From Streptomyces sp. WM6378 (GTDB lineage Bacteria; Actinomycetota; Actinomycetes; Streptomycetales; Streptomycetaceae), in NCBI RefSeq assembly GCF_001279695.1, contig NZ_LGDD01000011.1, positions 1-40,193 of the forward strand: a stretch of DNA of 40,193 nucleotides, read 5' to 3'. The position numbers and the translations under genes are program-made. Position 1 is the first letter of the stretch. Every line of letters starts with the position of its first letter. Shown here piece by piece: positions 2,567-21,229 of this stretch. The notes under the pieces were generated by a model. The model had not been told where the DNA came from and made no database searches. It was given only the letters and a program-made list of their open reading frames with translations.

Positions 2567-3892
2567 TCACGCCAAGCGACGGAATGCGGGCTTCACCGGC
2601 CGTCCGGCCAGCCAGGGGGTGGGGTCGGCGGCCTCCAGTGCCTTCCGGTACACCGCACATGCCTGGGCTGCGACGTCGACGGTGCGGTCGATGTCGGTGT
2701 CGCTGAGCGCGCTGCTCACCACGAACGACGGGGCAAGCACTCCGCCCGCGAGCAGTCGGCGGAGGAACAGGGTGCGGTACTGCTGCGACGGTTGCAGGTT
2801 CTCGTCAAGGGTGGCGAAGACCAGGTTGCTGGCCCGGCCCCGGACGACGACGTGGTCGCCGACGCCCATGCTGGCCGCGGCCTCGCGGACGCCGGCGGCC
2901 AACCGCTCGCCCAGGGTGTGCAGTTGCGCGGTGATGTCCTCCTCGACGTAGGTGGTTTGCACCGCCATCGCGGCGGCCAGGGAATGCGTTTCCGCACCGT
3001 GCGTCGTGGACAGCAGGAACACCCGGTCTCCGGGGTGCCGCAGCCCGCCGCGCTCCATCAGGTCGCGGCGCCCGGCCAGGGCGGAGACCGCGAACCCGTT
3101 GCCCAGCGCCTTGCCGAACGTGGAGAGGTCGGGCACGACGCCGTACAGGCCCTGGGCGCCCGCCTCGGACCAGCGCAGGCCGGTGATCATCTCGTCGAAG
3201 ACCAGTACGCAGCCGTGCCGGTCGGCCAGTACGCGCAGGCCCTGGAGGTAGCCGGGCGGCGGTTCGGTGTGGGTGGCGGGTTCGAGGATCAGGCAGGCGA
3301 CCTCGTCCTCGTACCGGGTCAGCAATTCCTCCGTGGCGGTCAAGTCCCCGTACGGGAACGCCACAGTGAGCTCGGTGGTCGCCGACGGAATGCCGGCGGA
3401 CATCGGCGTCGTACCGATGAACCAGTCGTCGACCGAGAAGAACGGATGGTCACCGCAGATGGCCACCCTCGGGCGCCCGGTGACGGCGCGGGCGAGGCGC
3501 ACCGCCGCGGTGGTGACGTCGGAGCCGTTCTTCGCGAACTTGACCATCTCGGCGGTCGGTACTGTGGCCAGAAATCGCTCCGCGGCCTCGACCTCCACGA
3601 TGGACGGCCGGGTGAAGTTGCTGCCGCGGTCGATCTCCCGCCGCACTGCCTCGAGGACGCGTGGGTGAGCGTGGCCGAGGCTGACCGACCGCAGGCCGGA
3701 GCCGTACTCGATGTAGTGGTTGTCGTCGATGTCCCACACGTGGGCGCCGCGGCCGTGGCTGATGACCGGGGCCAGGTTCTCGGGGTACTGGTCGTCTCCC
3801 TTCGCGTAGGTGTGTGCGCCTCCGGGGATCAGGGCGTGCAGGCGCTCGTTGGCCTGGCGCGACCGGGGCAGCGGGAGCTCTTCGGTGTCCAA
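2567..3892 (-). CDS. Class III aminotransferase, glutamate-1-semialdehyde 2,1-aminomutase-like
   Basis: PLP enzyme of 441 residues with the class III (GSAM-like) fold. Visible signatures are NGSD (122-125, phosphate-binding region), VFDEMITGLR (231-240, cofactor aspartate) and STFGKALGNG with the Schiff-base lysine K261. True HemL makes 5-aminolevulinate. A copy at the end of a polysaccharide operon more likely aminates or isomerises a sugar or a sugar substituent. The start is TTG, preceded by the ribosome site GGAAGGGTGA that overlaps the end of the upstream epimerase gene, which leaves only 7 bases between the genes. This is the last gene of the long minus-strand operon. The family is certain; the substrate is unknown. 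Confidence 0.88.
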   Translation of the reverse strand: MDTEELPLPRSRQANERLHALIPGGAHTYAKGDDQYPENLAPVISHGRGAHVWDIDDNHYIEYGSGLRSVSLGHAHPRVLEAVRREIDRGSNFTRPSIVEVEAAERFLATVPTAEMVKFAKNGSDVTTAAVRLARAVTGRPRVAICGDHPFFSVDDWFIGTTPMSAGIPSATTELTVAFPYGDLTATEELLTRYEDEVACLILEPATHTEPPPGYLQGLRVLADRHGCVLVFDEMITGLRWSEAGAQGLYGVVPDLSTFGKALGNGFAVSALAGRRDLMERGGLRHPGDRVFLLSTTHGAETHSLAAAMAVQTTYVEEDITAQLHTLGERLAAGVREAAASMGVGDHVVVRGRASNLVFATLDENLQPSQQYRTLFLRRLLAGGVLAPSFVVSSALSDTDIDRTVDVAAQACAVYRKALEAADPTPWLAGRPVKPAFRRLA

Positions 3893-3899
3893 GTCGACG

Positions 3900-4463
3900 T
3901 CACCCTTCCTTGTGCTTCAGGACGTGCTTCAGGGCCTCGGCGAGGCCAGGTGCCTTCCGGTCCCGCTGGGACATCGATGTGACCGGCAGCGGCCAGGCAA
4001 TGGCGAGTTCCGGGTCGTCGAAGGCGATCGTCACGTCCTCGGCCGGATCGTGCGGGCGGTCGATCCGGTACGAGGTGTCGGCGGTTTCGGTCAGCGCCTG
4101 GAAGCCGTGTGCGCAGCCCGCCGGGATGTACAGGGTCACCTGCGTCTCGCCGGACAGCTCGAAGAAAGCCTGGCTGCGGTAGGTCGGTGAGTCGGGCCGC
4201 AGGTCCACGATGACGTCGAAGATCTCCCCGTACGAGCACCGCACCAGCTTGGCCTCGCCGGCGCCGGAGCGCAGGTGCAGGCCGCGCAGCACGCCCTGGA
4301 CCGAGCGGGACAGGCTGTCCTGGACGAAGGCTTCCGGGTCGAGGCCCACCGAGCGGACCACGTCGGCGTCGAACGTGCGGCAGAAGAAGCCGCGCTCGTC
4401 GGCGTACGGCGTCGGCTGGAACAGGAACGCCCCGTCGATCGCCGGGACTTCGATCGCTTTCAT
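3900..4463 (-). CDS. dTDP-4-dehydrorhamnose 3,5-epimerase family protein (RmlC-like cupin)
   Basis: Cupin sugar epimerase of 187 residues, the usual RmlC length. The core GVLRGLHLR holds the expected catalytic histidine H63. K72, H119 (AGCAHGF) and Y132 (SYRID) fit substrate-binding and acid positions of the family. Where many RmlC enzymes have a Tyr-Tyr pair about six residues later, this protein reads RPHDP, so it may be a 3- or 5-epimerase of a different NDP-4-keto-6-deoxyhexose. No RmlA, RmlB or RmlD partner lies in the window, so a complete rhamnose pathway is not encoded here. The ATG start overlaps the upstream stop by ATGA, which implies translational coupling. Confidence 0.87.
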   Translation of the reverse strand: MKAIEVPAIDGAFLFQPTPYADERGFFCRTFDADVVRSVGLDPEAFVQDSLSRSVQGVLRGLHLRSGAGEAKLVRCSYGEIFDVIVDLRPDSPTYRSQAFFELSGETQVTLYIPAGCAHGFQALTETADTSYRIDRPHDPAEDVTIAFDDPELAIAWPLPVTSMSQRDRKAPGLAEALKHVLKHKEG

Positions 4464-5701
4464 GGTGACTCCTGCAGGGCGTGGGCGTGGTCGGCCGCCG
4501 GGAACAGGGCCGAGGTCAACGTGGTGAACTGGCGCTCAAGTTGCCGGACGGCGACCAGGTTCCGCTCGGTGAGGATCCGCCGCAGCTCCGCCGATCGCTG
4601 CTCCAGCGACCGGAACTGCTCCAGCAGCCGGCCGGCGTCGACCTCGCGAGCCGGGTGGCAGTACGCGGCAAGGCCCATCTGAGCCATGAGCGCGTCGCTC
4701 TTCGCCGCATAGCTGAGTGCGAGGGTCGGCACGCCGACCTTCAGCGCGCAGACGAGGTTGTGGTAGCGAGTCGCCACCACGGCGTCGGCGGCCGCCATCT
4801 CCTTCATGAGGTCGGCGAGCGAGGCCACCCCGGCAGCGGTGACCAGCGGCGAGTCCACTGCGTCGAGGATCGCGACGACCACCGGCGCATCGCACTCGTC
4901 GCCGGTGAGTAGCCGGACCGGCCTGCCGCCCTCAACCAGCGCGCGGACGAAGCGAGTTGTCCCGTCGAGATAGCGCCGGTGGATCTCCTCGGCCCGCTCG
5001 CGGTCGTCGTCACTGCCGTGGAAGTCCATGACGCCGACGCAGACCGGACCCGGCCGGCCCGGCGGCTCCGAGGGCGTGCCCGTCTGCGGCGTCGGCAGGG
5101 CGAAGGCGAGGTCCGGGTAGACCTCGTCGCGCGCGGTGTCCACGCCCATCTCCCGCATCGCGTCGCGGGACAGGTCGTCCCGGTAGGACCGGTACGTGGC
5201 AAGCCGCGCCGACCAGCGCACCAGGGACCTGGTCGGCCGCTTGCCGATCGGAGCGGCGCCGACGCCGACCAGCGCGACCCGGGTGCCGAACAGTCGGCCG
5301 GATGCGCAGAGCAGGAACAGCGCGTACGGAAAGCCCCACGGCCGCAGCGGCAGGGTGGCCTCCAGGACGCCCATGCCCGGCACGATCACCACGCTGTGCC
5401 GGCGCACCCAGGCGGCGGTGCGGACGGCGTCGACGACTTTGCCCAGGCCCTTCGCCGCGATCGCGCCCGCACGCGACGCGGTCCGGTACTCCCCGCGGTA
5501 CCAGTGCAGTCGCGTCGCGGGGATCCGGTACCGGGTCGCGACGACCTCGGGTCCGCCGCACAGCGCGTCCACGACCGCCTCCGGGTGCTCGGCGCGGAGG
5601 TAGCCGAGTACGGCTTCCAGCGACCCGTCGTTGCCGAGGTTGCCGGAGCCCAGCAGACCGAACACCCCGACGCGCACCGGAGCTTCGTCCGCGGACGTCA
5701 T
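4460..5701 (-). CDS. Polysaccharide pyruvyl transferase family protein
   Basis: A 413-residue member of the PS_pyruv_trans family, which moves pyruvate from phosphoenolpyruvate to a sugar hydroxyl to form a ketal. The amino end has the glycine-rich loop GLLGSGNLGNDG (15-26). The carboxy half has the characteristic RYHNLVCALKVGVP block near residue 312, followed by ALSY and a lysine-rich loop. Pyruvyl ketals add negative charge to exopolysaccharides and S-layer anchoring polymers. The gene overlaps both neighbours by four bases (ATGA at each end). An alternative role as a CsaB-like cell-wall modifying enzyme cannot be excluded, but the operon context favours exopolysaccharide decoration. Confidence 0.88.
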   Translation of the reverse strand: MTSADEAPVRVGVFGLLGSGNLGNDGSLEAVLGYLRAEHPEAVVDALCGGPEVVATRYRIPATRLHWYRGEYRTASRAGAIAAKGLGKVVDAVRTAAWVRRHSVVIVPGMGVLEATLPLRPWGFPYALFLLCASGRLFGTRVALVGVGAAPIGKRPTRSLVRWSARLATYRSYRDDLSRDAMREMGVDTARDEVYPDLAFALPTPQTGTPSEPPGRPGPVCVGVMDFHGSDDDRERAEEIHRRYLDGTTRFVRALVEGGRPVRLLTGDECDAPVVVAILDAVDSPLVTAAGVASLADLMKEMAAADAVVATRYHNLVCALKVGVPTLALSYAAKSDALMAQMGLAAYCHPAREVDAGRLLEQFRSLEQRSAELRRILTERNLVAVRQLERQFTTLTSALFPAADHAHALQESP

Positions 5702-6645
5702 GCCTGCCTCCCCTCACGTCCGGCGACGAGAGCGTCGACGGAGACGGTGATCCGGGCGGGGTCGACCGGGGCGCGGTCCTCGACCCGCTCGCCGGCGCCG
5801 GGCCGGGCCCGGCTGGTCATCCATGCGGCCAGGTGCCGGTGGCACGCGCGCCGGTCGGCCGGGGACAACGGTGCCCGCCGGATCGCGGAGGCGAAGCCCC
5901 AGACGTACTCGGCGAGCAACCGGGGCGTCGGGTGCAGCAGGCCTGCCCGGCGCGGGTCGAGGTTGACGCACCGGGCGCGCTTTCCGGGGTTCGCCCGCTC
6001 GGCACGGGTGGGATGGTCGCGGCGGAAGTACAGCAGCTCCGGCACTTGGTGGAAGGGCCCGTGCAGGACGATCTCGGCGACGAACGTGCGGTCCGCGTGG
6101 TGGTAGCTGTCGTGCGGCTTCACCCGGCGCAGCATGTCGGCTCGCATCACCCCGTAGAAGTCGTCACCACCGGGCTCGAACAGGAAACTGCGGAAGCGCT
6201 CCGGCGCGTTCGGCGAGTCGGTGGCGATCTTGTACTCGTACGGGACCTTCACCTGGCCGTCGCCGTCGATGACTGCCTGACCGGAGTGGGCGAGGATCAC
6301 GTCCGGCCGCTCGTCAAGCGCCTCCACGCAGCGGCGCAGCAGGTCCCGGGCGTACAGGTCGTCGTGCGAGGCCCACTTGAACAGCTCGCCGCGGCACTCG
6401 GTGAACACGTAATTGTGGTTCGGCGCGGCGCCGATGTTCCGGGGCAGCCGGAGGTACCGGATGCGCGAGTCGCGCGCTGCGTACCACCGGCAGACGACCG
6501 GAGTCCCGTCGGTCGAGGCGTTGTCGGAGATGACCAGCTCGAAGTCCTCGTAGGTCTGGCCGAGGAGGGCGTCGAGGGCCTCGGCAAGGTACTCCTCGCC
6601 GTTGTACACAGGCAGGCCGATGCTCAACCGGGGAAGGGCGGTCAT
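5698..6645 (-). CDS. Family 2 glycosyltransferase
   Basis: GT-A fold glycosyltransferase of 315 residues. It starts with the GT2 signature GLPVYNGEEYLAEAL (10-24), then ISDNASTDGT (39-48) for nucleotide binding and SHDD (93-96) as the metal-binding acidic motif. It has no transmembrane anchor, so it probably adds a sugar to the lipid-linked repeat unit at the inner membrane face. The frame stays open upstream inside the flippase gene, but the ATG at 6645 overlaps the flippase stop as ATGA and begins right before the GT2 core, so I chose it. Linkage and donor sugar cannot be read from sequence. Confidence 0.88.
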   Translation of the reverse strand: MTALPRLSIGLPVYNGEEYLAEALDALLGQTYEDFELVISDNASTDGTPVVCRWYAARDSRIRYLRLPRNIGAAPNHNYVFTECRGELFKWASHDDLYARDLLRRCVEALDERPDVILAHSGQAVIDGDGQVKVPYEYKIATDSPNAPERFRSFLFEPGGDDFYGVMRADMLRRVKPHDSYHHADRTFVAEIVLHGPFHQVPELLYFRRDHPTRAERANPGKRARCVNLDPRRAGLLHPTPRLLAEYVWGFASAIRRAPLSPADRRACHRHLAAWMTSRARPGAGERVEDRAPVDPARITVSVDALVAGREGRQA

Positions 6646-7958
6646 GGTGTCCTCGCTTCGCGGATGGGGGTGCGGTGGTGCTCGCGCAGGGCGGACCGCA
6701 ACTGCAGCCACCACACGGCCGAGCCGCAGACGGTCGAAGCGGCGACGCCCCAGGCCGAGCCCACCGTGCCGGCCACGGCCGCTCCGCCGAGGCCGCCGCC
6801 GACATAGAAGGCGGAGGCGAACATCTGGCAGCGCAGGCTGCGCCGGGCCGCTGCGAGCGCGCGGAGCCCGGCCGCCGCGCCGGTGCCCAGGCCTGCGCCC
6901 GCGACGCCGAGCGTGACCGGCGCGATGAGCGTCGAGGCGGAGCTCCAGACGTCGCCGAGGACGAACTCGCCGAGCCGGTCCGGCATCAGCAGCAGCGCCG
7001 CGCCCCACAGCAGCGCGGCGACGGCCTGCACGCCGCCAAGGACGAGACAGAAGACGCCGAGGTGGTGCGGGGCCCGGCGCAGTACCCGTGCCGCCTCGGC
7101 GACGGTGACCAGTGAAAGGCCCATCAGCACGGCCATGAACGGGCCGAGCAGGAGCTCGGCGCCCCGCACCACGCCCACCGCGCTGACCCCGACGATCGCG
7201 CCGAGCCCGTACGCCCGCAGCTGGCCGGCGCCGCTGACGCCGACGTTCTCGACCAGGTAGCGGTAGCCGAGGTCGCGGTGTTCGCGAAGCCACTCGTGCG
7301 CTCCGGTCATCCGGGGCCGGATGCCGGACTGGACGCAGCCGTATGCGGCGGCCACCGCGGCGGACGCGCCCCAGGCGAGCACGAAAGCGGCCACGCTGCC
7401 CACGCGGGCGGCCACCACCATGGCCGGGATGAGCGCGATGCCCCACACGATGTCGTTGACGAAGGCCCTGCGCCCGGTGCCGGCGGCGAAGAACGCGTAC
7501 CGCCAGGCGTCCTGCAACAGCAGCCCCGGCAGCATGAAGCCGAGGCAGGCGAACGCGGGCCCCACCCGCCCGCCGAGAGCGAGGCCGAGCACCACACACG
7601 CCGCCCCGATGGCACCGCCGACGCCGAGCGCGGTGCCCGACGACCGGGCCACCGCCCTGCGCCAGGACCAGTCCGGCACGCCGCTGAAGCGCACCACGAG
7701 AGGGTCGGTGGCCAGGCCGCGGGAGACGCTGAGCACCACGCCGTAGGTCACCCAGGCCAGGCTGAACACGCCGAACGCGGTGAGTCCCAGCGAGCGGGCG
7801 ACGTAGATGCCCACCACGAAGTTGGACAGGCTGGAGGCCGCCTGGTCGGCAAGGCCCCAGGACAGCCGGCCGAGGATGGCCCGCTTGGCGGTCCGCCGGG
7901 CGTGTCGGGCCGGGACCGCCGCTGTCGTCTTCTCCCCCTTGGCGGTCATCGACGTCAT
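6642..7958 (-). CDS. Polysaccharide flippase, Wzx/MATE-like (oligosaccharide flippase family)
   Basis: Integral membrane protein of 438 residues with roughly 12 hydrophobic segments. The first comes after a basic tail (residues 1-28) and is followed by the pattern GIYVARSLGLTAFGVFSLAW seen in polysaccharide-synthesis flippases. The expected role is moving undecaprenyl-linked repeat units across the membrane before polymerisation. It fits with the Wzy-like protein and the Wzz-like pair of the same operon. Both ends overlap neighbouring genes by ATGA. No nucleotide-binding motif is present, so it is not an ABC exporter component. Confidence 0.83.
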   Translation of the reverse strand: MTSMTAKGEKTTAAVPARHARRTAKRAILGRLSWGLADQAASSLSNFVVGIYVARSLGLTAFGVFSLAWVTYGVVLSVSRGLATDPLVVRFSGVPDWSWRRAVARSSGTALGVGGAIGAACVVLGLALGGRVGPAFACLGFMLPGLLLQDAWRYAFFAAGTGRRAFVNDIVWGIALIPAMVVAARVGSVAAFVLAWGASAAVAAAYGCVQSGIRPRMTGAHEWLREHRDLGYRYLVENVGVSGAGQLRAYGLGAIVGVSAVGVVRGAELLLGPFMAVLMGLSLVTVAEAARVLRRAPHHLGVFCLVLGGVQAVAALLWGAALLLMPDRLGEFVLGDVWSSASTLIAPVTLGVAGAGLGTGAAAGLRALAAARRSLRCQMFASAFYVGGGLGGAAVAGTVGSAWGVAASTVCGSAVWWLQLRSALREHHRTPIREARTP

Positions 7959-9292
7959 GCCTTGATCAGCCCGGCGCCGCGCAGGGCGTCGGCCGCGACG
8001 GCGACGGTGTCGAACGGCAGCCCGGACCGCTCGGAGACATCGAGGAGACTGTGCTCGCCGTCGGAGAGGCTGAGCACCCAGAGCACGGCCATCTGGGCGT
8101 GCTGCGTGTCGCTGCGGCCGCCGAGCGAGTCGTACAACCCGCGTCGGCCCAGCTGTGGTTCGCCGTAGGGGCTGAGGTTGAGGTACCGCCGGTTGCGGTC
8201 GAGGACGGCGAACGCCTCGCGGCAGACGGCGAGGGTGTCCGCCATCGCCTCCGGGGAGACGAAGTCCGGGTTGTCGGCCGAGGTGTGGTACTCGGCATAA
8301 CCGGCGTACGGGGTCCGGCTGAGCGAGCCCACGCCGAGATCGAATCCGGGCGAGCAGTACTGCCGCTCGTCGTAGCCGTACGGAGTGAACTCGGTGACGC
8401 GGTGCGGGCGTTCGGAGGCCAGCAGCACATGCCGCATCACCCGGTCGATCTCCGCGTCGCCGCGCCTGCTCTGCTTGTAGGTCAGTTGGCCCCGGTCGCC
8501 GGCACAGGCCAGCACGAGCCCGTGCTTGACCTTTCCCCCAGCTCTCGGCTCCGCTCGACCAGGGGATGCCCCATTGATGCGCTCCGCGTTGCGGGCCAGC
8601 CAGGTGATCGCGCCGATGGTGCCGGGCGCGTAGATGAACCGGTAGGTGTAGTAAGGGGTTTGCTCCGCCAGCGCGCGGGCCAGGAACGTCGCCACCGCGA
8701 TGCCTGCCAGGTTGTCGTTGGCCAGCGAAGGGTGGCAGACGTGGCAGGAGACGATCACCTCGTCCGGGACCTGACCGGGAATCACATGCTCGGCGTAGGT
8801 GAGGTGGCCGTCTTCGAGCGTGGAGTCGATGCGTACCTCGTACTCACCGTCCGGCAGCGCGTCCAGGGTCTCCTGGGACAGGCAGAACCCCCACTCCGGC
8901 TTGTAGTAGCTGGTGCGGTACGGCACCCAACTCGGGTGGTCCGGAAGGGTGTGCAGGTGTCCGCGCAGCTCGGACAGCGGCATGGTCTTCGACACGGGCA
9001 CGCTGTAGCCGAGCACGTGCAGGCTGGACGCGGCGAAGTCGACGACCCGGTTGCCGGCGGTGTCGGCGATGTACGCGTCCCGGATGTTCCACTCCTGCGG
9101 CACGGTCCAGTCGAGCACTTGAGTCCCGGTCGCCACCTCGTGCACCTGCAGCGGGATGTACTCGCCGACGATCTCCAGGGTGGCGCGCACCCCGTCGCCG
9201 GTGATGCTCCGGCAGAGCGGGTACAGCCGCTCCACCAGCGCGTGCATCTGCTGGCCGGCCGAGGTCATCGGCTGTTCGCCGGGCGCGGTCAT
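7955..9292 (-). CDS. DUF4910 / aminopeptidase-like domain protein with in-frame palindrome insertion
   Basis: Protein of 445 residues of the DUF4910/DUF2172 type: a zinc-peptidase-like (M28-fold) core followed by a small helix-turn-helix-like tail. Metal-ligand candidates are H184, H187 and D193 in SCHVCHPSLANDN, D308/E309 in YGYDERQY, and H336 in EYHTSAD. Despite the peptidase look, the family sits in many O-antigen and exopolysaccharide clusters, where it probably acts on a sugar or an amide; its reaction is not known to me. Residues about 241-253 are encoded by a Streptomyces interspersed palindrome (8533-8572) where relatives run directly from the helix into KHGLVLAC. The ATG at 9292 overlaps the upstream stop (ATGA); an ATG at 9268 is a weaker alternative. 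Confidence 0.85.
   Translation of the reverse strand: MTAPGEQPMTSAGQQMHALVERLYPLCRSITGDGVRATLEIVGEYIPLQVHEVATGTQVLDWTVPQEWNIRDAYIADTAGNRVVDFAASSLHVLGYSVPVSKTMPLSELRGHLHTLPDHPSWVPYRTSYYKPEWGFCLSQETLDALPDGEYEVRIDSTLEDGHLTYAEHVIPGQVPDEVIVSCHVCHPSLANDNLAGIAVATFLARALAEQTPYYTYRFIYAPGTIGAITWLARNAERINGASPGRAEPRAGGKVKHGLVLACAGDRGQLTYKQSRRGDAEIDRVMRHVLLASERPHRVTEFTPYGYDERQYCSPGFDLGVGSLSRTPYAGYAEYHTSADNPDFVSPEAMADTLAVCREAFAVLDRNRRYLNLSPYGEPQLGRRGLYDSLGGRSDTQHAQMAVLWVLSLSDGEHSLLDVSERSGLPFDTVAVAADALRGAGLIKA
8533..8572. repeat. Streptomyces-type interspersed palindromic element inside a gene
   Basis: The 40 bases from TTCCCCCAGCTCTCGG through GCTCGACCAGGGG to GCCCC match, from memory, a palindromic repeat scattered through many Streptomyces genomes, normally between genes. 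Its C-rich and G-rich arms can pair. Here it lies in frame within the DUF4910 gene and adds about 13 residues (roughly GASPGRAEPRAGG). It is the only copy I found in the window. Confidence 0.65.
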
Positions 9293-10314
9293 CGGCGCCA
9301 CCGCAGGGTGTCGTCGACGGTGCCGGCGTCGGACGCCGCGCGCAGCACGGCAAGGCGGATGAAGCGTCGCTCGAAGTCCTCCCGGGTCAGCCCGAACGTC
9401 CGGTAGGCATCGGCGAGTTCGAGTGCGCCCTGCTTCACCGTCCACTCGCAGTCGAAGCCGGGCACCGCGGCGCGGTACCGGGAGAAGTCCACCCGGTAGG
9501 AGCGCGGGTCGGCGCCGGTCTCGCCGGTGATCACCACCTTCGAGCCGGACACCGCCTCGGCGACCTGCTCGGCGATCTCGGCGACCGTGACGTTGTTGAT
9601 CTCGCTGCCGATGTTGAACGCCCGGTCGTGCACCGCTTCGCGCGGCGCGGTCAGCGCGGCCGCGAAGGCCCGCGCGATGTCGGCGGCGTGCACCAGCGGA
9701 CGCCAGGGCGTGCCGTCGGACATCACCAGGACTTCGCCGGACAGCAGCGCGTGGCCCACCAGGTTGTTCAGCACGATGTCGGCACGCAGCCGGGGCGAGA
9801 AGCCGAAGGCGGTGGCATTGCGCATGAACACCGGGCTGAAGTCGCCGTCGGCGAGCGCGTGCAGATCGTCCTCCACCCGCACCTTGGAAACCGCGTACGG
9901 CGTCACCGGGCGCAGCGGGGCGTCCTCGGCCACTAGATCGGCGCCGCCGGCGGCGCCGTAGACGGAGCAGGTGGACGCGTACAGGAGGCGCCGCACTCCG
10001 GCGTCGCGCGCCAGCCGGGCAAGGCGTACGGAGGCGTGGTGATTGATGTCGTACGTGAGGTCGGGCGCCAGCGATCCCAGCGGGTCGTTGGAGAGCGCGG
10101 CCAGGTGGATCACGGCGTCCACCCCGGCCACGTGTTCGGCCGTGACATCGCGCAGGTCCACCCGGGGCCCCGGCGGGTCCGCGGGCGGCGGGCCAAGGAC
10201 GCAGTCGGCGAACAGGCCGGAGTCGAGGCCGACGACCTCGTGCCCGGCGGCCGTGAGGACCGGAGCCATCACGGTGCCCAGGTAGCCCTGGTGTCCGGTC
10301 AGCAGTACGCGCAC
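9289..10314 (-). CDS. NAD-dependent epimerase/dehydratase (extended SDR)
   Basis: Extended short-chain dehydrogenase of 341 residues acting on a nucleotide sugar. The cofactor loop is GHQGYLG (7-13). The active site has the ASTCSVYG block with the catalytic Ser/Thr, and YAVSK with the Tyr-Lys pair. The usual 4,6-dehydratase signature (T-D-E before V-Y-G) is absent, so an epimerase, reductase or other oxidoreductase is more likely than an RmlB- or RfbG-type dehydratase. The GTG start lies 16 bases inside the end of the PIG-L gene, and the stop overlaps the DUF4910 start (ATGA). It belongs to the sugar-modification block 2567-12993. Confidence 0.87.
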   Translation of the reverse strand: MRVLLTGHQGYLGTVMAPVLTAAGHEVVGLDSGLFADCVLGPPPADPPGPRVDLRDVTAEHVAGVDAVIHLAALSNDPLGSLAPDLTYDINHHASVRLARLARDAGVRRLLYASTCSVYGAAGGADLVAEDAPLRPVTPYAVSKVRVEDDLHALADGDFSPVFMRNATAFGFSPRLRADIVLNNLVGHALLSGEVLVMSDGTPWRPLVHAADIARAFAAALTAPREAVHDRAFNIGSEINNVTVAEIAEQVAEAVSGSKVVITGETGADPRSYRVDFSRYRAAVPGFDCEWTVKQGALELADAYRTFGLTREDFERRFIRLAVLRAASDAGTVDDTLRWRR

Positions 10315-10964
10315 GGTTCATCCCCCAGATTGAGCGTGAGTTTGGTGACGGCGAACGCCTCGGCATAGCGCGCGGAGCATTCGATGCCGCGGATCCGGGC
10401 AAGGCCGAGGAAGGCTTCCCGGTCGTACCAGGGCCGGTGGCGTTGCGAGGGATAGTGCTCCTGCAGCAGCCGCACTTTCCGTTCGGCGATCTCCGTCGAC
10501 AGCGGCTGGTACGCCGCCGGACGGCCGAGATCGCCGTCCCACTTGACGATCTCGTAGCCGAGCACGAGGTGGTCGCGGAACGCGGTGGTCACCAGCTTCG
10601 CCAGGCTCCGGTGGTCCTGGTGCGCGTCATCGGTGCGTGGTGCAAGGACCAGATCCGGCTCGGTCTCCGTGCGCAGCTCCTCGACCGAGGCCTTGGCCTC
10701 GTCCCAGTGCGCGGGCAGTCGGCCGTCCGGCAACTTGTCTACGGTCAGCCGCAGTTCGGCACCCGGGCAGAAGGCGGCGAGTGCGGCCTGCTCCTCCTGC
10801 TCCCGCTCGCTGCCGCCGCCGGAGAGCACCAGCGCGTCGATGCGGATACCGGGCCGTGCGAGGCACGTCGTGAGCAGCGTGCCGCCGGCGCCGATGGCGA
10901 TGTCGTCGCAGTGTGCTCCTACCGCGACGATCCGGTTCAGGGGCCCGGCCCCGAGCCGGATCAC
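10299..10964 (-). CDS. PIG-L family deacetylase
   Basis: Zinc-dependent N-deacetylase of the PIG-L/LmbE fold, 221 residues. The first metal motif reads GAHCDDIAIG instead of the common AHPDDE, a form seen in sugar-cluster members. The second is DAHQDH (H-x-x-H). Expected substrates are N-acetylated sugars or nucleotide sugars, giving a free amine. The GTG at 10964 overlaps the nucleotidyltransferase stop as GTGA. The frame is open further upstream, but that part lies wholly inside the other gene and is a shadow. The next gene starts 16 bases before this one ends, so translation is tightly coupled. Confidence 0.87.
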   Translation of the reverse strand: MIRLGAGPLNRIVAVGAHCDDIAIGAGGTLLTTCLARPGIRIDALVLSGGGSEREQEEQAALAAFCPGAELRLTVDKLPDGRLPAHWDEAKASVEELRTETEPDLVLAPRTDDAHQDHRSLAKLVTTAFRDHLVLGYEIVKWDGDLGRPAAYQPLSTEIAERKVRLLQEHYPSQRHRPWYDREAFLGLARIRGIECSARYAEAFAVTKLTLNLGDEPCAYC

Positions 10965-11761
10965 GCCGTCGCTCCGGCGCTCGCGCCGTCCCGTTCCCAC
11001 ACGGCCCACGGGCGGTCGCCCCGGGCGTACGCGTCGTCGAGCGCGGCCCGCTCCTTCACCGTGTCGGTCGGCTTCCAGAAGCCGCGGTGCTGGTGCGCCA
11101 CAAGGCGTCCCCGCTTGGCCAGTTGGGCACATCCGTCGGCGACCAGGTCCCCGTTCTCCGGGATGTGGTCGAAGACCTCCTGGCGGAGCACGAAGTAGCC
11201 GCCGTTCTCCCACAGCGGCAGTTCGCTCACCGCGGTGATGCCCCCCACCAGGCCGTCCTCGCCCAGGTCCACGCAGTGGAACGACGACTGCGGCGGCACC
11301 ACCATCATCGACGCACCCGCGTCGCGCCGGGCGAACCGGTCGATCATCTCCGGCAGTGGGGCATCGGTGAGCACGTCGGCGTAGTTGGCGAGGAACAACT
11401 CGTCGCCGTCCAGGTGGTGCCGCACCCGGCGCAGCCGCTCCCCGATCGGTGACTCGATGCCGGTCTGCGCGAACGTGATCGTCCAGTCGGCGATGTCGGT
11501 GGACAGCAGCTCGGTCTTCCCGCCCCGCAGAACGAAGTCGTTGGACGTCGTCTCCTCGTAGTTGAGGAAGAAGTCCTTGATGTGGTGAGCGCCGTATCCG
11601 AGGCACAGGATGAACTCCGTGTGCCCGAAGTACGCGTAGTAACGCATGACGTGCCAGATCAGCGGCCGTGGGCCGACCATCGCCATCGGCTTGGGCACGT
11701 CGTCGGACGCTCCGCTGCGCATCCGCAGCCCATAACCGCCGCAGAACAGAACCACCTTCAC
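10961..11761 (-). CDS. Sugar-1-phosphate nucleotidyltransferase (RfbF-like)
   Basis: Nucleotidyltransferase of 266 residues, closest by pattern to glucose-1-phosphate cytidylyltransferases. The start VVLFCGGYGLRMR corresponds to the G-G-x-G-T-R loop, with leucine replacing threonine. VPKPMAMVGPRPLIWHVM matches the pyrophosphorylase lysine motif, and LANYADVLTD carries the metal-binding aspartate. It probably activates a sugar phosphate for the downstream SDR, PIG-L and methyltransferase steps; CDP is a reasonable guess for the nucleotide. The GTG at 11761 overlaps the methyltransferase stop (GTGA). The 35 in-frame codons upstream are not family-like. Confidence 0.85.
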   Translation of the reverse strand: MKVVLFCGGYGLRMRSGASDDVPKPMAMVGPRPLIWHVMRYYAYFGHTEFILCLGYGAHHIKDFFLNYEETTSNDFVLRGGKTELLSTDIADWTITFAQTGIESPIGERLRRVRHHLDGDELFLANYADVLTDAPLPEMIDRFARRDAGASMMVVPPQSSFHCVDLGEDGLVGGITAVSELPLWENGGYFVLRQEVFDHIPENGDLVADGCAQLAKRGRLVAHQHRGFWKPTDTVKERAALDDAYARGDRPWAVWERDGASAGATA

Positions 11762-12993
11762 GGCTTGACCTCGACAATGCTCAGTTCCGGGATGGGAAAG
11801 ACCAGGCGGCCGCCCCAGTCGTGCACGAAGGACAACTGCTCGACCAGCTCGGCTCGCAGGTTCCACGGCAGGACGAGGACGTAGTCGGGCTTGTCGGCGG
11901 CTATCTGCTCGGGCGGCAGGATCGGGATACGGGTGCCCGGGGTGAACCGGCCGTGCTTGTAGGGGTTGCGGTCGACGGTGTAGGGGAGCAGGTCGGGTCG
12001 TATGCCGCAGTGGTTGAGGAGGGTGTTGCCCTTGCCCGGGGCGCCGTAGCCGACGACCGCCTCGCCGCGCTCGGCCGCCTCGATGAGGAACTTCAGGAGG
12101 TCACGGCGCACCTTGGCCACCCGGGCGGAGAACTCCGTGTACCCGGACAGTTCCTGCAGACCGGCGGCCTTCTCCCGGTCAAGCACGTCGGCCACCCGCT
12201 GGGACGGCTCTCCCGCCACCTCGGCAGGCCGGGCCCACAGCCGGATGGAGCCGCCGTGCGTGGGCAGCAACTCCACGTCCACCAGCGAGAGTCCACCGCT
12301 CGCCAGCGCGCGGATCGCGGACGCGACCGTGTAGTACTGGAAGTGCTCGTGGTAGATCGTGTCGTACTGGTTCTCCTCGATCAGGGTCAGCAGATGCTGC
12401 ACCTCGATGGAGACCCAGCCGTCGTCGGCGACCAGGGCGCGGAGCCCCCGCGTGAACCCGACCACGTCGGGGACGTGTGCGTACACGTTGTTGGCCACGA
12501 CCAGGTCCGCCGGGCCGTGCTCGGCGCGGACGGCCGAGCCGGTGTCCGGGTTGAGGAACTCCGTGAGTGTGGGCACACCCGCATCGCGCGCCGCCGCGCC
12601 GACGTTCACCGACGGCTCGATGCCCAGGCAGCGGATCCCCCGGTCCACCACGTGCTTCAGCAAGTACCCGTCGTTGCTTGCCACTTCGACCACGAAGCCG
12701 TCGGGGCCGAGACCCACCCGCTGTACGGCATCGGCGACGAAGGTGAGCGCATGCTCCACCCAGGAGGCGGAGTAGGAAGAGAAGTACGCGTACTGGGTGA
12801 ACGTGTCCTCCGGGGTGATCAGCGGAGGGATCTGCGCGAGCCAGCAGTCGGTGCACACCCGCAGGTGCAGCGGATACCCGGGCTCCGCCTTGTCCAGTTG
12901 GTCCGCGGCGAGAAAACTCTCGCACGGCGGGGTCGCCCCCAGGTCGACGACGCTCTCCAGCGCCGCCGAGCCGCAGAGTCGGCATCGTGTCAT
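11758..12993 (-). CDS. SAM-dependent C-methyltransferase (NDP-hexose C-methyltransferase type)
   Basis: Three-part sugar C-methyltransferase of 411 residues. The amino-terminal zinc ribbon has C4, C7, C47 and C50. The Rossmann domain carries VVEVASNDGYLL (101-112) for SAM. The C-terminal domain has GYGAPGKGNTLLNHCGI, typical of TylC3/NovU-like enzymes that methylate C3 or C5 of NDP-4-keto-deoxysugars. NYDTIYHEH-like sequence (QYDTIYHEHFQYY) also fits this family. It implies a branched, C-methylated sugar in the polymer. The ATG at 12993 overlaps the upstream glycosyltransferase stop (ATGA). Class and domain order are clear; the methylated carbon is unknown. Confidence 0.88.
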   Translation of the reverse strand: MTRCRLCGSAALESVVDLGATPPCESFLAADQLDKAEPGYPLHLRVCTDCWLAQIPPLITPEDTFTQYAYFSSYSASWVEHALTFVADAVQRVGLGPDGFVVEVASNDGYLLKHVVDRGIRCLGIEPSVNVGAAARDAGVPTLTEFLNPDTGSAVRAEHGPADLVVANNVYAHVPDVVGFTRGLRALVADDGWVSIEVQHLLTLIEENQYDTIYHEHFQYYTVASAIRALASGGLSLVDVELLPTHGGSIRLWARPAEVAGEPSQRVADVLDREKAAGLQELSGYTEFSARVAKVRRDLLKFLIEAAERGEAVVGYGAPGKGNTLLNHCGIRPDLLPYTVDRNPYKHGRFTPGTRIPILPPEQIAADKPDYVLVLPWNLRAELVEQLSFVHDWGGRLVFPIPELSIVEVKP

Positions 12994-14261
12994 CCAGTGC
13001 CCCCATCCCTGCTCGCGCGGGTGTCCCGCCGCGAGCCGTTTCCGTTCCCTACCGGCGGCGCGCTTTCCCCGCCGCCGGACCGACCGGCGATCGCGGTTTG
13101 GTACCCCTCCACCAGGCGATCGAGGCCGACGGCCGGGCTGAACCCCTGCTCGTAACGGCTCCGGGCCGCCCGGCCCATCTCCCGGTTGCGGTCCTGCTCG
13201 GCCGTGATCCGGCGCAGGCAGGACGAGAGCGAGGCCGCCTCGCCCGGCTGGTGCAGCAACCCGGTCACTTCGTCCTCGACGAGTTCGACGAAGGCGCCGT
13301 GACCGGCGGCGACGGCCGGGACCCCGGCCGCCATCGCCTCCACGACCACCAGACCGAACGCCTCCAGCCACGTCGAGGGAGCCACCACGGCGACCGACCG
13401 TGCGATGGCCTTCTGACACTCCGCCGTGTCGTACAGCCCGACGTAGCGCACGTCGTCCCGGCCCGCTGCCCAGGCGATCACCTCTCGTTCCAGCGGCCCC
13501 GTGCCTGCGATCACGAGCGGCACGCCCACACCGCCGCCCGCCGCGATCTCGTCCCATGCGGCCATGAGCAGCCGCACGCCCTTGGCCTCCGCGAGCCGGC
13601 CGAGAAAGAGCACATGCTCGCCGTCGGCCGTCCGGCAAGTGCCGGGCTCTGGCACGAAGTTGTGCTTGACCGCGAGCCGGTCGGGTGGCATGCCCGCCCG
13701 TACCAGGACGTCGCGCTGCGCCGCGGAGATGCAGAAGAACCGCTCCACGCCGGACCACCACCGCCGCCGGTTGACCGACAGACTGACGGCGAGCGGCACC
13801 GTCGCAAGACGGGAGTTTCGGTAGCAGCCGTGCCGGACGGCGGGCAGTGGCACCGACCCGACGCACTCGGTGCACGGCCGGCCGTCCCGTTGCAGTGTGC
13901 CGGGCGGGCAGAGCTGGGTGTAGTTGTGCAGCGTGGCGACGGCGGGCACATCCGCGTCGGCGCAAGCGGCAAGCACCGCGGGCGACAGGAGCGGGAAGAC
14001 GTTGTGGATGTGCACCACGTCCGGCCGCTCGGTGCGAAGGCGGGCGGCGAGTTCCCTGCGGACCGCCGGGTTCCACGGCACGAGCAGTGGCACCGCTACT
14101 TTGCCCGGCAGCGTTCGGGCGGCGATGTCGTCGCTGCGCCGCCCGAACACCTCGACCCGGTGGCCGGCCGCGCGCAGCAGCTCCACCTCCTGGTCGACGA
14201 CCTTGTTCTCCCCGCTCGGCTGTGCCGAGGAGTAGCGGTTGTGCACTACGAGGATGTGCAT
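12990..14261 (-). CDS. Family 4 glycosyltransferase
   Basis: Retaining GT-B glycosyltransferase of 423 residues. The amino domain begins MHILVVHNRY and contains a glycine/serine loop (SGENKVVDQE). The carboxy domain has FLGRLAEAKG (219-228), VIAGTGP (250-256) and the E-x7-E motif at E300 and E308 in LEAFGLVVVE. A cysteine-containing segment at 118-146 (C118, C130, C133, C146) resembles a metal knuckle found in some GT4 proteins of polysaccharide clusters. The ATG at 14261 is preceded by GGAGGTGA at 8-base spacing, an excellent ribosome site. A GTG at 14273 overlaps the upstream stop but lacks this spacing. Confidence 0.88.
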   Translation of the reverse strand: MHILVVHNRYSSAQPSGENKVVDQEVELLRAAGHRVEVFGRRSDDIAARTLPGKVAVPLLVPWNPAVRRELAARLRTERPDVVHIHNVFPLLSPAVLAACADADVPAVATLHNYTQLCPPGTLQRDGRPCTECVGSVPLPAVRHGCYRNSRLATVPLAVSLSVNRRRWWSGVERFFCISAAQRDVLVRAGMPPDRLAVKHNFVPEPGTCRTADGEHVLFLGRLAEAKGVRLLMAAWDEIAAGGGVGVPLVIAGTGPLEREVIAWAAGRDDVRYVGLYDTAECQKAIARSVAVVAPSTWLEAFGLVVVEAMAAGVPAVAAGHGAFVELVEDEVTGLLHQPGEAASLSSCLRRITAEQDRNREMGRAARSRYEQGFSPAVGLDRLVEGYQTAIAGRSGGGESAPPVGNGNGSRRDTRASRDGGTG

Positions 14262-14269
14262 GCTTGAGG

Positions 14270-15568
14270 TCACCTCCGATCCTTGGCCCAGCGCGGGAGA
14301 TGCCGCCGAGGGACTGTGGGCGTCGATGGGGGAGCGGTCGCGGCGGGTGCCGCGAGGAGAGAGGCGGCCACGGCCAGATGCAGCAGATAGGGGGAGGCGT
14401 CGCCGAGTCCGGCTTCGGTGTACGACGCGATCGCGCAGTAACTGATCAGGAAGATCGCACAGGCCCTCGACAGCGAGGGTGGCCGCAGCAACGCGACGCC
14501 GGCAAGGACGATGATGATCGCCGCGACCAACCCGATGCCGGTCAGACCCTGCTCGTTGTAGACGGCCAGCCAGCTGTTGTCGATCGGCAGCCCGCCGAAC
14601 GACTTGTCGCCCAGGCCCACGCCGAACAGCTGCTCCGAGGTCGTCCGGGGGGCTGCCAGCAGGGCGTCCCAGACTTTTTCCCGGCCGGTGAGGTTCGAGA
14701 AGTTCTCCTTGCTCTGTCCGCGCAGGAACCACGCCTGAAGTGCGGAGCTGAACCCCACCGCGGCCACGGTGGCGCACAGCACCGTCCAGGTGAAGAACCG
14801 GCGGGCTGCGGCGCTGCTCAGGACGAGCGAGCCGATCGCCAACGCCAGCCCGATGAGCAAGCCGAGCGTGGCCGTCCGGGTATGGGTCAACGCGAGCAGG
14901 ACCAATGACGGCACGATGACCACCGCCGCACTGGCCCTGTCGGTCCGACGGCCCAGTAGGAGCAGCACGGCGAGCCCGGTGATCACCGCGGCGTACTGTC
15001 CGATCTGCGGCGGAGTGAGCGGCCACAACGCGCCGACAAGGCGCCCGCCGTAGAGGTCGGGCATGGCCGCGCCCGGTGAGACGACCAGGCCGGCGGCCAC
15101 CGACGCGAGCACTGCGAAGTACATCCGGATGTGGTGCCGGACGAACGTCGGGCCGCCGTCCCACCAGCGGCTGAGCAGCCACAGCGTGCCGACGAAGAGG
15201 GCAAGCCGGGTGCACCGGAACAGCGCGCCGAACCCGGACTCCAGGTGCGCACTGGAGATCACGCTCGGCACCAGCAGCAGGGTCAGCAGGAACAAGAAGG
15301 CGCTGGCTTGGATACGCAGCCGGAGATTGAGGGCGAGCGCCAGAGCGAACGCGCCGACCAGTGAGCCCATGGTGACCAACTGGATGAGGGAGCGGGGCAG
15401 CGGGATGATGGTCCGCGCCCCGGCGGAGCCGAGCGTGTTGAGGACCAGCAACCCCCAGACGACGCCTACGGTCCTCGGTGTGCCGACCGGGCGCGGTTCG
15501 GCGCCGAGCCGTGCGCCCGCCGTGTCCGGTCCGCCCGGCAGCCCACCGGGCATCAGGTTCCCGCCCAT
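14270..15568 (-). CDS. O-antigen ligase/polymerase family membrane protein (Wzy-like)
   Basis: Polytopic membrane protein of 432 residues with about 10-12 hydrophobic segments. A large loop near residues 290-340 contains RGQSKENFSNLTGREKVW and then GVGLGDKSFGGLPIDNSWL followed by NEQGLTGIG, the pattern of the Wzy_C/WaaL family. In this operon, with a Wzx-like flippase and Wzz-like proteins, it most likely polymerises lipid-linked repeat units on the outer face of the membrane. The ATG at 15568 is one base after the beta-helix gene stop. A GTG at 15577 and an ATG at 15553 are alternatives, as none has a strong ribosome site. Confidence 0.82.
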   Translation of the reverse strand: MGGNLMPGGLPGGPDTAGARLGAEPRPVGTPRTVGVVWGLLVLNTLGSAGARTIIPLPRSLIQLVTMGSLVGAFALALALNLRLRIQASAFLFLLTLLLVPSVISSAHLESGFGALFRCTRLALFVGTLWLLSRWWDGGPTFVRHHIRMYFAVLASVAAGLVVSPGAAMPDLYGGRLVGALWPLTPPQIGQYAAVITGLAVLLLLGRRTDRASAAVVIVPSLVLLALTHTRTATLGLLIGLALAIGSLVLSSAAARRFFTWTVLCATVAAVGFSSALQAWFLRGQSKENFSNLTGREKVWDALLAAPRTTSEQLFGVGLGDKSFGGLPIDNSWLAVYNEQGLTGIGLVAAIIIVLAGVALLRPPSLSRACAIFLISYCAIASYTEAGLGDASPYLLHLAVAASLLAAPAATAPPSTPTVPRRHLPRWAKDRR

Positions 15569-17116: not shown

Positions 17117-19034
17117 CTAGCCGCGGAACCTGAGTACGGTGGTGAACCCGTCCGCGCCGTCGGTGAAGCCGGTGCCGACCAGCGTGGTGGTGGGTTCCTT
17201 GCGCCCGAAGCCGGGGGAGTACCAGCCCAGCGGCGGGTCCGTCTCGCCGCGGTGCGCCCGCCAGCACAACTGCCCGGGCAGGTCGAGCCGCCCGGTTCCC
17301 CACCAGGTCCGCGCCGATCGCCGGGCCGAGGTGGAACGCCAGCTGCACCGCCCGGCGCGGGCCGCGCACCTCGTCGACCACCCGCAACTCCTGACTCGCG
17401 GCAGTCAGCTCCACCTGACGGCGGTGCACGGAGGGCTGGTAGCCGTCGTGCTCGGCACACCAGCGGACCACCTGCTCGCCGGATGTGTCCGCGACCAGAA
17501 CGCGGCTGCGGGCCTGCCGGGTCCACAGGAACGGGCCGCCGGAGACGGACTGGTCACCGCCGTCCAGTTGCAGGGTGTTGTGGCTGAGGGTCGACCGGAA
17601 GTATTGCCGCCACTCGGGCTGCCCGTGGTAGCAGAACGTCCCCGGGTCGGCGAGCACGTCGACCCCGTCGTACCGGACCTCCACGGACAGCGCGTCCGCG
17701 TGGGCATGCGCGGCGATGGACAGGAAGCCGTGCGGACCGCCGTCGCAGCGGCACCAGATCTCTCCCGGACCGCGCAGGATGGTCATGCCCGCGTCGGCGA
17801 AATGGGCCGGTCGGCTTGCCGAGCGGGCGACGGACGGTGCGGTCCCATTTTTGGGGTACGGGCGGATGAGCGCGGCAAGGAGCGGGGTGCGTACATCGGT
17901 GCCGGCCACCTCCGGCCACCAGGCGAGACGGCCGAACACGGCGTCCCCGGTGGCCAGGAGCGAGCCCCAGCGGTCGGTGCCCGTGCCGTCCACGACCAGA
18001 CCGTGCCCGTCGTCCGCGTCCCCCTGGCGCGGTGGCCGGAACCGGCCGTCCACGACGGCCGCGAGTGCGTCGGTCATCCGCAGCAGCACCAGGCGGACGG
18101 ACTCGGGGACCGGCACGCCGGCGGCATCCGCTTCGGCCACCGCGGCCAGACCGAGCTCCAGCACGAGTCCGTGATATTCGGTGGCCAGCTCGCGGTTGAG
18201 GCCGGAGGCGAAGGTGTTGCCGCGCAGGTGCCGCTCCAGTGACCGCAGCGCGCCGAAGCGCCAACGCGCCGAGGAGGGGAACCATCCGAACGCGCAGGCC
18301 GCTGCGAACTGTCCTGCGGTCTCGGCGATGACGTGGTTGTTCGCCGAGGACCCCCGGCTGGGGAAGGCGGCCAGCCAGCGCTGGTGGTGCCAGATCTGAT
18401 TCACCGCCACCGGGTTGCCCTCGAAAAGGCCGGCCGCGCCCGGCCAGCCGTCGAGCAGGCGGCGGATCCACACCCAGGAAAGCAGCCGGATGCCCAGCTC
18501 GATGCCGCTGATCCAGTGCACTCCGCGCAGCGGTGGGTTGGCCGCCCACCACGATCGCAGGTGCCCGGCCACGCGCTCGGCGTACCGCTCGTCCCCGGTG
18601 ACCGCGTAGGCGGCGGCGAGCACGGTGAGGTACTGATGCCGGGACAGCTCCCAGATCTGCTTGATGTCCCCGACCGCGTCTTCGCTGCGGTACGGCACGT
18701 CGAAGGCGTAACCGGACGGAGCCCGGCGGCCGGTCTTCGGGTCGCGCCACCAGTCCGGGTCGGCCAGGTCGTCGCGGACCACGCCGAAGTACTCGGCGTG
18801 CCCGTACATCAGCCGGTCCGCCTCGGCGACGAGACGTTTCGCGGCGTCCGGAGGTATGGCGGTGAGTGTCCCGGCGGGCAGTACCGCGGTGAACCGGGCG
18901 CCGGTCACGCGCGGGCAGTCGGGCACCGACGACCGCCACCGCCGCCTGCGCACCGCGTCGCCCACCCGGCCGCCGACCTCCCGCGGCTCCATCCGGGAAA
19001 GGCGTCGCAGGTACCAGCCGGTGCTCATGGTCAT
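17117..19034 (-). CDS. Heparinase II/III-fold (alginate-lyase-like) protein, frameshifted near the 3' end
   Basis: The intact gene would encode 638 residues: an alpha/alpha toroid (about 1-330, with NQIWHHQRWLAAFP and SSANNHVIAETAG), then the heparinase beta domain with AAHAHADALSVEVRYDG, LADPGTFCYHG and RSTLSHNTLQLDGGDQS. After ADLVG the reading frame changes at a run of four C on the + strand (17298-17301). With three instead of four, the frame continues GTGRLDLPGQLCWRAH to a TAG at 17117. As written, the frame skips that stop and runs on into the beta-helix gene. This is either a one-base sequencing error or a real frameshift. Likely role: lyase or trimming enzyme for a uronic-acid polymer, although no signal peptide is visible. 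Start ATG 19034 overlaps the upstream stop. Confidence 0.78.
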
Positions 19035-21211: not shown

Positions 21212-21229
21212 CCGAACTCCTCTGTATTC

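Follow-up and report, generated by a model that had tools for sequence, protein, structure and literature searches.

When sugar-modifying enzymes of unlike families are encoded side by side in a polysaccharide locus, it must be asked whether they build a single sugar and, if so, by which chemistry. This question is raised by a minus-strand gene cassette at positions 2567-12993 of a 40,193-nucleotide stretch of Streptomyces sp. WM6378 (contig NZ_LGDD01000011.1, assembly GCF_001279695.1), hereafter called the window. A first-pass annotation had named eight families there, and all eight were recovered by profile or structure matches on the minus strand. We propose, with a probability of about one half, that the cassette is a largely co-inherited module for making one nucleotide-activated, 3-C-methyl-branched sugar of a surface polysaccharide. 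The likely product is a nucleotide sugar with a 3-C-methyl branch, a retained 6-hydroxyl and probably an amino group. The genes in question are the following.

11758..12993, minus strand: three-domain sugar C-methyltransferase (C-MT), core gene (PF08421, PF13489, PF08484)
10961..11761, minus strand: RfbF-like nucleotidyltransferase (NT) without the EKP motif, core gene (match to 1tzf; TIGR02623 below cut-off)
10299..10964, minus strand: PIG-L/LmbE-type zinc amidase (deacetylase), core gene (PF02585)
9289..10314, minus strand: short-chain dehydrogenase/reductase (SDR), predicted Cj1427-like nucleotide-sugar C4-dehydrogenase, core gene (PF01370, 156 bits; 6vo6; Foldseek)
7955..9292 (start 9292 or 9268), minus strand: DUF4910-DUF2172-HTH_47 protein, core gene (361/135/101 bits; 3k9t)
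3900..4463, minus strand: RmlC-type 3/5-epimerase, cassette gene (PF00908, 184 bits; TIGR01221)
2567..3892, minus strand: glutamate-1-semialdehyde aminomutase (GSAM)-like class III pyridoxal phosphate (PLP) aminotransferase, cassette gene that is usually present but optional (PF00202, 129 bits; NF004856)

Linkage and co-inheritance of the cassette genes

Homologues of the DUF4910 protein and of the NT (both at E <= 1e-100) were each found in 72 of 199 genomes sampled evenly from the genus, that of the window included; these genomes are kin and do not represent independent trials. Compared by eye, the two lists of 72 are identical, and the remaining 127 genomes have neither gene at that limit. 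A scan with the DUF4910 alignment confirmed 584 stretches or more; the 80 best-scoring loci were kept, all of them actinobacterial and biased to close relatives. The order C-MT, NT, PIG-L, SDR, DUF4910 on one strand was found in all 80, of which 73 also have RmlC and 65 have GSAM. Among the 15 kept loci that lack GSAM, seven lie on cut contigs too short for the distal genes (L030, L049, L057, L069, L071, L075 and L090), and the gene is thus absent from 8 of the 73 that are long enough; those eight (L093-L100) have no GSAM gene within ~10 kb. In PLSDB, 29 of 60 NT rows among the matches listed (190 records) are close NTs with at least 41% identity, and the other listed rows, at 38.5% identity or less, are mostly annotated as rfbF. 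PIG-L, C-MT and SDR genes lie within 15 kb of all 29 close NTs, DUF4910 accompanies 27 and GSAM 23 of them, and their hosts include Alphaproteobacteria (Mesorhizobium, Shinella, Agrobacterium, Sinorhizobium and Ochrobactrum). The genomic co-occurrence that the first-pass annotation had expected of these genes is thus strongly positive in the genomes of the genus, the 80 kept loci and the plasmid records alike.

The distance matrices of the five core genes correlate at 0.93-0.98 over 36 taxa (the window and 35 others, chosen from the 86 loci in which the five are complete), with large inter-phylum distances accounting for much of the correlation, and none of 2000 permutations reached any of these values or those given below for GSAM and RmlC. 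The cassette is a real unit whose linkage goes far beyond chance. Its travelling core consists of C-MT, NT, PIG-L, SDR and DUF4910, with RmlC and GSAM as usual but not universal companions, and, by the sequence distances, the genes have for the most part travelled and evolved jointly. In one genome (G421, contig C1, ~2514453-2517745), both DUF4910 and NT matched only in part, as though the cassette had been rearranged or were being lost.

A probable 4-keto sugar with its 6-hydroxyl retained

The C-MT has the PF08421-PF13489-PF08484 domain order and the YxEH motif (97 of 97 rows) of sugar 3-C-methyltransferases of the TylC3/TcaB9 type. The YxEH residues have a catalytic role, and members of this family methylate C3 beside a C4 ketone, so that a 4-ketosugar is required. 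The mycarose and tetronitrose enzymes 4rv9 and TcaB9 share the three domains and YxEH with the C-MT; unlike the substrate proposed here, theirs are dTDP-4-keto-2,6-dideoxy sugars made in antibiotic clusters.

Such a ketone usually comes from a 4,6-dehydratase. The signature of these enzymes is T-D-E or T-D-K, and the SDR of the window has S-T-C-S at this position, as the first-pass annotation had noticed in saying that the signature is lacking; among the SDR-like rows collected from the loci, 104 in all, a single one has TDE. The protein reaches 19.9 bits with the CDP-glucose 4,6-dehydratase profile (TIGR02622, RfbG; cut-off 278.45), with which the RfbG control of locus L123 scores 466, and 84.9 bits with the UDP-glucose 4-epimerase profile (TIGR01179, GalE; cut-off 262.3). 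Its best PDB match by phmmer is 6vo6, the Cj1427 enzyme (100.6 bits, the next at 81.7), to which it is 26-28% identical. With an AlphaFold2 model of the SDR (pTM 0.85, mean pLDDT 80 but below 50 at residues 117-127 and 129-133), Foldseek ranks 1-6 were all Cj1427 chains (E 1e-19 to 5e-18; next entry 1e-16), which makes Cj1427 the closest solved relative by both sequence and Foldseek. The Campylobacter enzyme Cj1427 oxidizes C4 of GDP-heptose with retention of the 6-hydroxyl and requires alpha-ketoglutarate, which becomes L-2-hydroxyglutarate; a 3/5-epimerase acts next (PMC10680097). This route (Cj1427, Cj1430, Cj1428) resembles our proposal in its succession of an SDR-fold C4-dehydrogenase and a 3/5-epimerase with the 6-hydroxyl kept, but it operates on GDP-heptose, continues with a C4-reductase and involves no C-methylation (PMC10680097). 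Judged from motifs and relatives, the SDR is probably a C4-dehydrogenase, an assignment in which we have somewhat more confidence than in the pathway as a whole.

If the SDR uses alpha-ketoglutarate, the presence beside it of an L-2-hydroxyglutarate oxidase (LhgO) in Deinococcus polysaccharide loci makes sense: a gene for this enzyme adjoins SDR relatives (51-52% identical) in four of four Deinococcus plasmids listed, and its apparent role there is to serve a sugar dehydrogenase dependent on alpha-ketoglutarate as recycling partner. This would offer a possible explanation for the oxidase in such loci. In these loci (L110:6990-10646 and plasmids H329-H331), the LhgO gene lies between the RfbF-type gene and the SDR gene. 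The genome of the window encodes an LhgO, 56% identical, on a different contig. No SDR is annotated alongside LhgO in four other plasmid loci (L117-L120), three of which (L117-L119) look catabolic and the last of which resembles a different biosynthetic locus. These were dropped as support, since their contexts indicate that LhgO alone predicts nothing; no further LhgO match was found among 116 loci. An FAD oxidoreductase next to the SDR in L113 was also considered as an LhgO and rejected, as it belongs to the amine-oxidase family.

The nucleotidyltransferase and the PIG-L protein

The NT matches glucose-1-phosphate cytidylyltransferase 1tzf (146 bits) and stays below the RfbF equivalog cut-off of TIGR02623 (183.3 versus 300.25 bits), its EKP motif being replaced. 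No second RfbF-type gene was found in the genome at E <= 1e-20. EK is missing in 89 of 95 NT rows, all 89 from loci with PIG-L. The EK-bearing NTs are those of L105 and L110-L114 (6 of the 95), to which L122 and L123 are added; among these eight loci, PIG-L was found in L105 only (by tblastn for six, by annotation for L122 and L123). A strict tie between PIG-L and loss of EKP, which we had considered, is broken by L105. GlcNAc-1-phosphate uridylyltransferases likewise lack the EKP Lys and, since PIG-L accompanies the loss, the NT may act on an N-acetylamino sugar-1-phosphate. The PIG-L protein itself scores 49.9 bits with PF02585 (cut-off 28.2) and 55.7 bits with the BshB1 equivalog (cut-off 182.5), and the zinc motifs of the family are conserved, HxDD in 91 of 96 rows (the other five gapped) and HQDH in all 96. 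The first-pass annotation had left two steps unassigned, those of DUF4910 and the GSAM-like enzyme; to these must be added the NT without its sugar-phosphate motif and the SDR, which by motifs is no dehydratase.

DUF4910, RmlC and GSAM-like proteins

DUF4910 is, to our knowledge, an orphan family without a known activity. The DUF4910 protein of the window scores above cut-off with PF16254 (360.9 bits), PF09940 (134.8) and PF16221 (100.8) and matches 3k9t across its length (475 bits). All 110 rows retain the zinc-site His residues of CHPS and YHTS, whereas the Asp is found in 102 and replaced by Asn in the other eight. Ser and Pro occupy the positions of the M28 metallopeptidase catalytic Asp and Glu, as in 3k9t (positions from PMC4000134). 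Das et al. described a single zinc and no M28 catalytic pair in 2014, suggested transacylation or amidase activity on sugars and reported no linked target protein (PMC4000134). A peptidase or a role in protein glycosylation was set aside on the same grounds, the absence of the M28 residues and of a linked target protein (PMC4000134). DUF4910 is found both in this cassette and in nonulosonate loci, two dissimilar amino-sugar contexts that an acyl or amide step would fit, and zinc-dependent acyl or amide transfer is our guess for its reaction.

The RmlC protein scores barely above the dTDP-4-dehydrorhamnose 3,5-epimerase cut-off of TIGR01221 (158.7 versus 155.75 bits). The GSAM-like protein scores far above the cut-off of NF004856 (705 versus 486 bits), whose GSAM name is a label rather than a functional test. 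A housekeeping HemL was rejected for this protein, which reaches 219.6 bits with TIGR00713 (hemL, cut-off 527.3), the genome having a separate hemL above that cut-off elsewhere (588.9 bits). All 76 rows retain the PLP Lys, and among the class III relatives of known structure are C6' aminotransferases. That the enzyme transaminates the C4 ketone is a guess.

Proposed pathway

From the gene content, co-inheritance, motif losses and family memberships described above, we infer substrates, an order of steps and a CDP carrier, the DUF4910 step being the weakest element. The NT would form a nucleoside diphosphate sugar, probably CDP-linked; the loss of EKP makes it probable that the substrate is not glucose-1-phosphate but a sugar-1-phosphate that is modified or bears an amino group. 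The SDR would oxidize C4 and leave the 6-hydroxyl in place, and alpha-ketoglutarate would reoxidize the NADH bound to the SDR and be released as L-2-hydroxyglutarate. C-MT would then methylate C3 beside the ketone and the RmlC-type enzyme would invert C5; where present, the GSAM-like enzyme could place an amino group onto the ketone. PIG-L would remove an N-acyl group, and the DUF4910 protein, with its one zinc and M28 fold without the peptidase residues, might move or make an acyl or amide bond on the sugar. The branched, probably amino-bearing surface-polymer sugar imagined in the first-pass annotation fits these results; its possible pyruvylation finds no support, as the pyruvyltransferase gene stands outside the travelling core.

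Some observations weigh against this scheme. In VIA-align comparisons of the SDR model, Cj1427 came out level with 4-epimerases, so that the fold by itself cannot settle the role of the SDR. The genome encodes a dTDP-glucose 4,6-dehydratase above the TIGR01181 cut-off, on another contig. The occurrence of EK together with PIG-L in L105 disagrees with an amino-sugar substrate of the NT.

The first two of these would suit a classical 6-deoxy route, which we regard as unlikely: dTDP-4-keto-6-deoxyglucose made by RmlB would feed C-MT and RmlC, with the SDR as a C4-reductase or as an epimerase, whose fold it shares, and the product would be an ordinary 3-C-methyl-6-deoxy sugar according to mycarose or vancosamine logic. 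Antibiotic-sugar 3-C-methyltransferases, which use dTDP sugars, are indeed the best solved relatives of the C-MT (4rv9, mycarose 3-C-methyltransferase, 292 bits). However, such a route has no use for the NT, which is always linked, and does not account for the Deinococcus LhgO. The operon genes scanned include no 4,6-dehydratase, nor does the annotation of L002, the plasmid locus that matches, show one, and the genome contains no CDP-glucose 4,6-dehydratase (TIGR02622) at E <= 1e-30. Sister cassettes also argue against it. The classical locus L123 has the order NT(EKP)-RfbG-RmlC-like-CMT-reductase, to be compared with NT(EKP)-LhgO-SDR-RmlC-MocA in L110 (Deinococcus), NT-SDR-RmlC-reductase in L121 and NT-SDR-methyltransferases in L122, where the SDR is part of a longer gene; the SDR thus occupies the slot of the CDP-glucose 4,6-dehydratase, and a separate reductase or MocA gene follows in L121 and L110.

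Neighbouring genes might instead serve different residues of the repeat unit, RmlC a rhamnose and GSAM another sugar for instance, with no tie beyond membership of one polysaccharide locus. The distances of RmlC correlate less well with those of the five core genes (0.72-0.83, 34 taxa), GSAM is missing from 8 of the 73 sufficiently long loci and from 6 of the 29 plasmid records, and in the Rhizobium locus L114 RmlC lies ~11 kb away from DUF4910. Nevertheless, GSAM tracks the core at 0.97-0.98 (24 taxa) and RmlC tracks GSAM at 0.98 in those same taxa, while RmlC directly adjoins DUF4910 in L003, L004 and L005, and we consider separate sugars quite improbable. Last, the NT might activate a compound that is not a sugar-1-phosphate, other phosphates being known substrates of some sugar-nucleotidyltransferase folds, or be a non-catalytic partner. 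This would agree with the lost phosphate-contact Lys and the TIGR02623 score, but it is very improbable given that GG.G.R, PKP and the metal-site Asp are kept in the NT of the window and in nearly all of the 95 rows, that the adjoining C-MT and RmlC are sugar enzymes, and that, as noted above, GlcNAc-1-phosphate uridylyltransferases lack this Lys too.

Variant cassettes

Looser combinations indicate which genes belong most closely together. L113 has an NT with EKP, RmlC, DUF4910, C-MT and SDR, with neither PIG-L nor GSAM. In L114, a GSAM-CMT-DUF4910 set is accompanied by an EK-bearing NT and an SDR that stand apart from it, and PIG-L is lacking; a DRL-type oxidoreductase with a SAF domain (L114:1998-3281) adjoins the RmlC of this locus. 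Twenty-seven of 42 plasmid DUF4910 records contain the full core, seven from Rhizobium have C-MT and GSAM, and one from Paroceanicella has C-MT, NT, RmlC and SDR. The other seven show no cassette gene among the matches listed, the five of them that were inspected being nonulosonate loci (L006, L007, L008, L115 and L116). By variants such as L113 and L114, DUF4910 is a frequent partner of C-MT and is not strictly tied to PIG-L or GSAM. In the Gordonia and Tsukamurella cassettes (L108:13036-14163 and L109:13027-14139), a second methyltransferase gene takes the DUF4910 slot; that of L108, the sole one scanned, is of the Methyltransf_13/14, C-methyltransferase-like kind with its S-adenosylmethionine (SAM) domain matched only partly.

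Relation to described systems

The DUF4910 protein CA_C2195 and its homologues in actinobacteria and other phyla were reported beside genes for a sugar epimerase, a nucleotidyltransferase, a glycosyltransferase and a SAM-dependent sugar methylase, several operons also encoding an export protein and a pyruvyltransferase, and a role in a modified cell-surface carbohydrate was proposed (PMC4000134). These neighbourhoods resemble the cassette in the epimerase, nucleotidyltransferase and methylase, but PIG-L, the GSAM-like enzyme, RmlC, the loss of EKP and the dehydrogenase reading of the SDR are not named in the part available; the words 'deacetylase' and 'cytidylyltransferase' do not occur in the main text, whose worked example is a nonulosonate locus (PMC4000134). 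The first-pass annotation knew of no described pathway with this gene set. The sugar-gene neighbourhood of DUF4910 had in fact been published in 2014, although without any pathway chemistry (PMC4000134). Our literature search found no paper on the full set or on the SDR as a dehydrogenase; the exact set may stand in the supplements of PMC4000134. The single parts belong to families already known, and what appears to be new is their combination and the predicted chemistry.

The classical trios for C-methylated CDP sugars, as in Sinorhizobium meliloti (ddhA, ddhB and a 3-C-methyltransferase gene, SMb21416-21418; PMC4053727) and L123, share with the cassette an RfbF-type NT, a 4-keto-forming SDR-fold enzyme and a homologous C-MT. 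L123 also has an RmlC-like protein, and its C-MT is 46.5% identical to that of the window. In contrast to the cassette, the trio contains a true CDP-glucose 4,6-dehydratase (466 bits) and the NT of L123 has EKP; no PIG-L, DUF4910 or GSAM is annotated there.

A more far-reaching version of our proposal, possible but doubtful, is a new pathway in which an alpha-ketoglutarate-recycled C4-dehydrogenase replaces the CDP-sugar 4,6-dehydratase and leads to 6-hydroxy 3-C-methyl (4-amino) hexoses in surface polymers of Streptomyces and rhizobia and to related 6-hydroxy sugars in Deinococcus, DUF4910 being a new one-zinc, M28-fold sugar-nucleotide acyl or amide transferase. Branched 4-keto sugars would then be made with the 6-hydroxyl retained. 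In any case, DUF4910, so far described by structure 3k9t and the 2014 neighbourhood paper, gains a precise partner set. The labels 'glucose-1-phosphate cytidylyltransferase' and 'glutamate-1-semialdehyde aminomutase' given to genes of such loci are suggested to be misnomers, the former potentially in all 72 of the 199 sampled genomes that have the NT.

Surrounding operon and minor observations

The cassette ends a minus-strand polysaccharide operon that runs from ~30.4 kb down to 2.6 kb of the window, in a genome of 9.5 Mb. The following genes are interspersed with or adjoin those of the cassette.

12990..14273, minus strand: family 4 glycosyltransferase (GT4), directly upstream of C-MT (PF00534/PF13439)
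6642..7958, minus strand: multi-pass membrane protein, probable Wzx-like flippase (seven hydrophobic 19-mers; position and inspection by eye)
5698..6645, minus strand: family 2 glycosyltransferase (GT2; PF00535)
4460..5701, minus strand: polysaccharide pyruvyltransferase (PF04230, 99 bits)

The flippase-like and GT2 genes had been left out of the first-pass annotation; the former had no match in Pfam or NCBIfam scans. Given the composition of the travelling core, the pyruvyltransferase, GT2 and flippase genes are attributed to the polysaccharide locus and not to the sugar cassette. The translational coupling noted in the first-pass annotation holds: of the ten junctions between the upstream GT4 gene and GSAM, RmlC-GSAM alone has a gap, of 7 bases, and the other nine are overlaps, one of 16 bases and eight of 4. 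The SDR-DUF4910 overlap presumes that translation starts at the ATG of position 9292; a start at the ATG of 9268 would leave a short gap.

The rest of the operon encodes an initial sugar transferase, a UDP-sugar dehydrogenase, a GT4, two Wzz-type proteins, an asparagine synthase, an alcohol-dehydrogenase/MocA fusion, heparinase-like and beta-helix parts and a weak, sub-cut-off Wzy match, followed by the GT4. The alcohol-dehydrogenase/MocA fusion and the asparagine synthase (19031-23164) recur in the Streptomyces plasmid locus L002. A PAP2-family phosphatase gene (1879-2559), convergent with the GSAM gene and present beside the cassette in 65 of the 80 loci, perhaps encodes the lipid-carrier phosphatase of the locus. 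At the right end of the window (37027-40039), we found genes for an ankyrin/HEAT-repeat protein and an IS110-type transposase.

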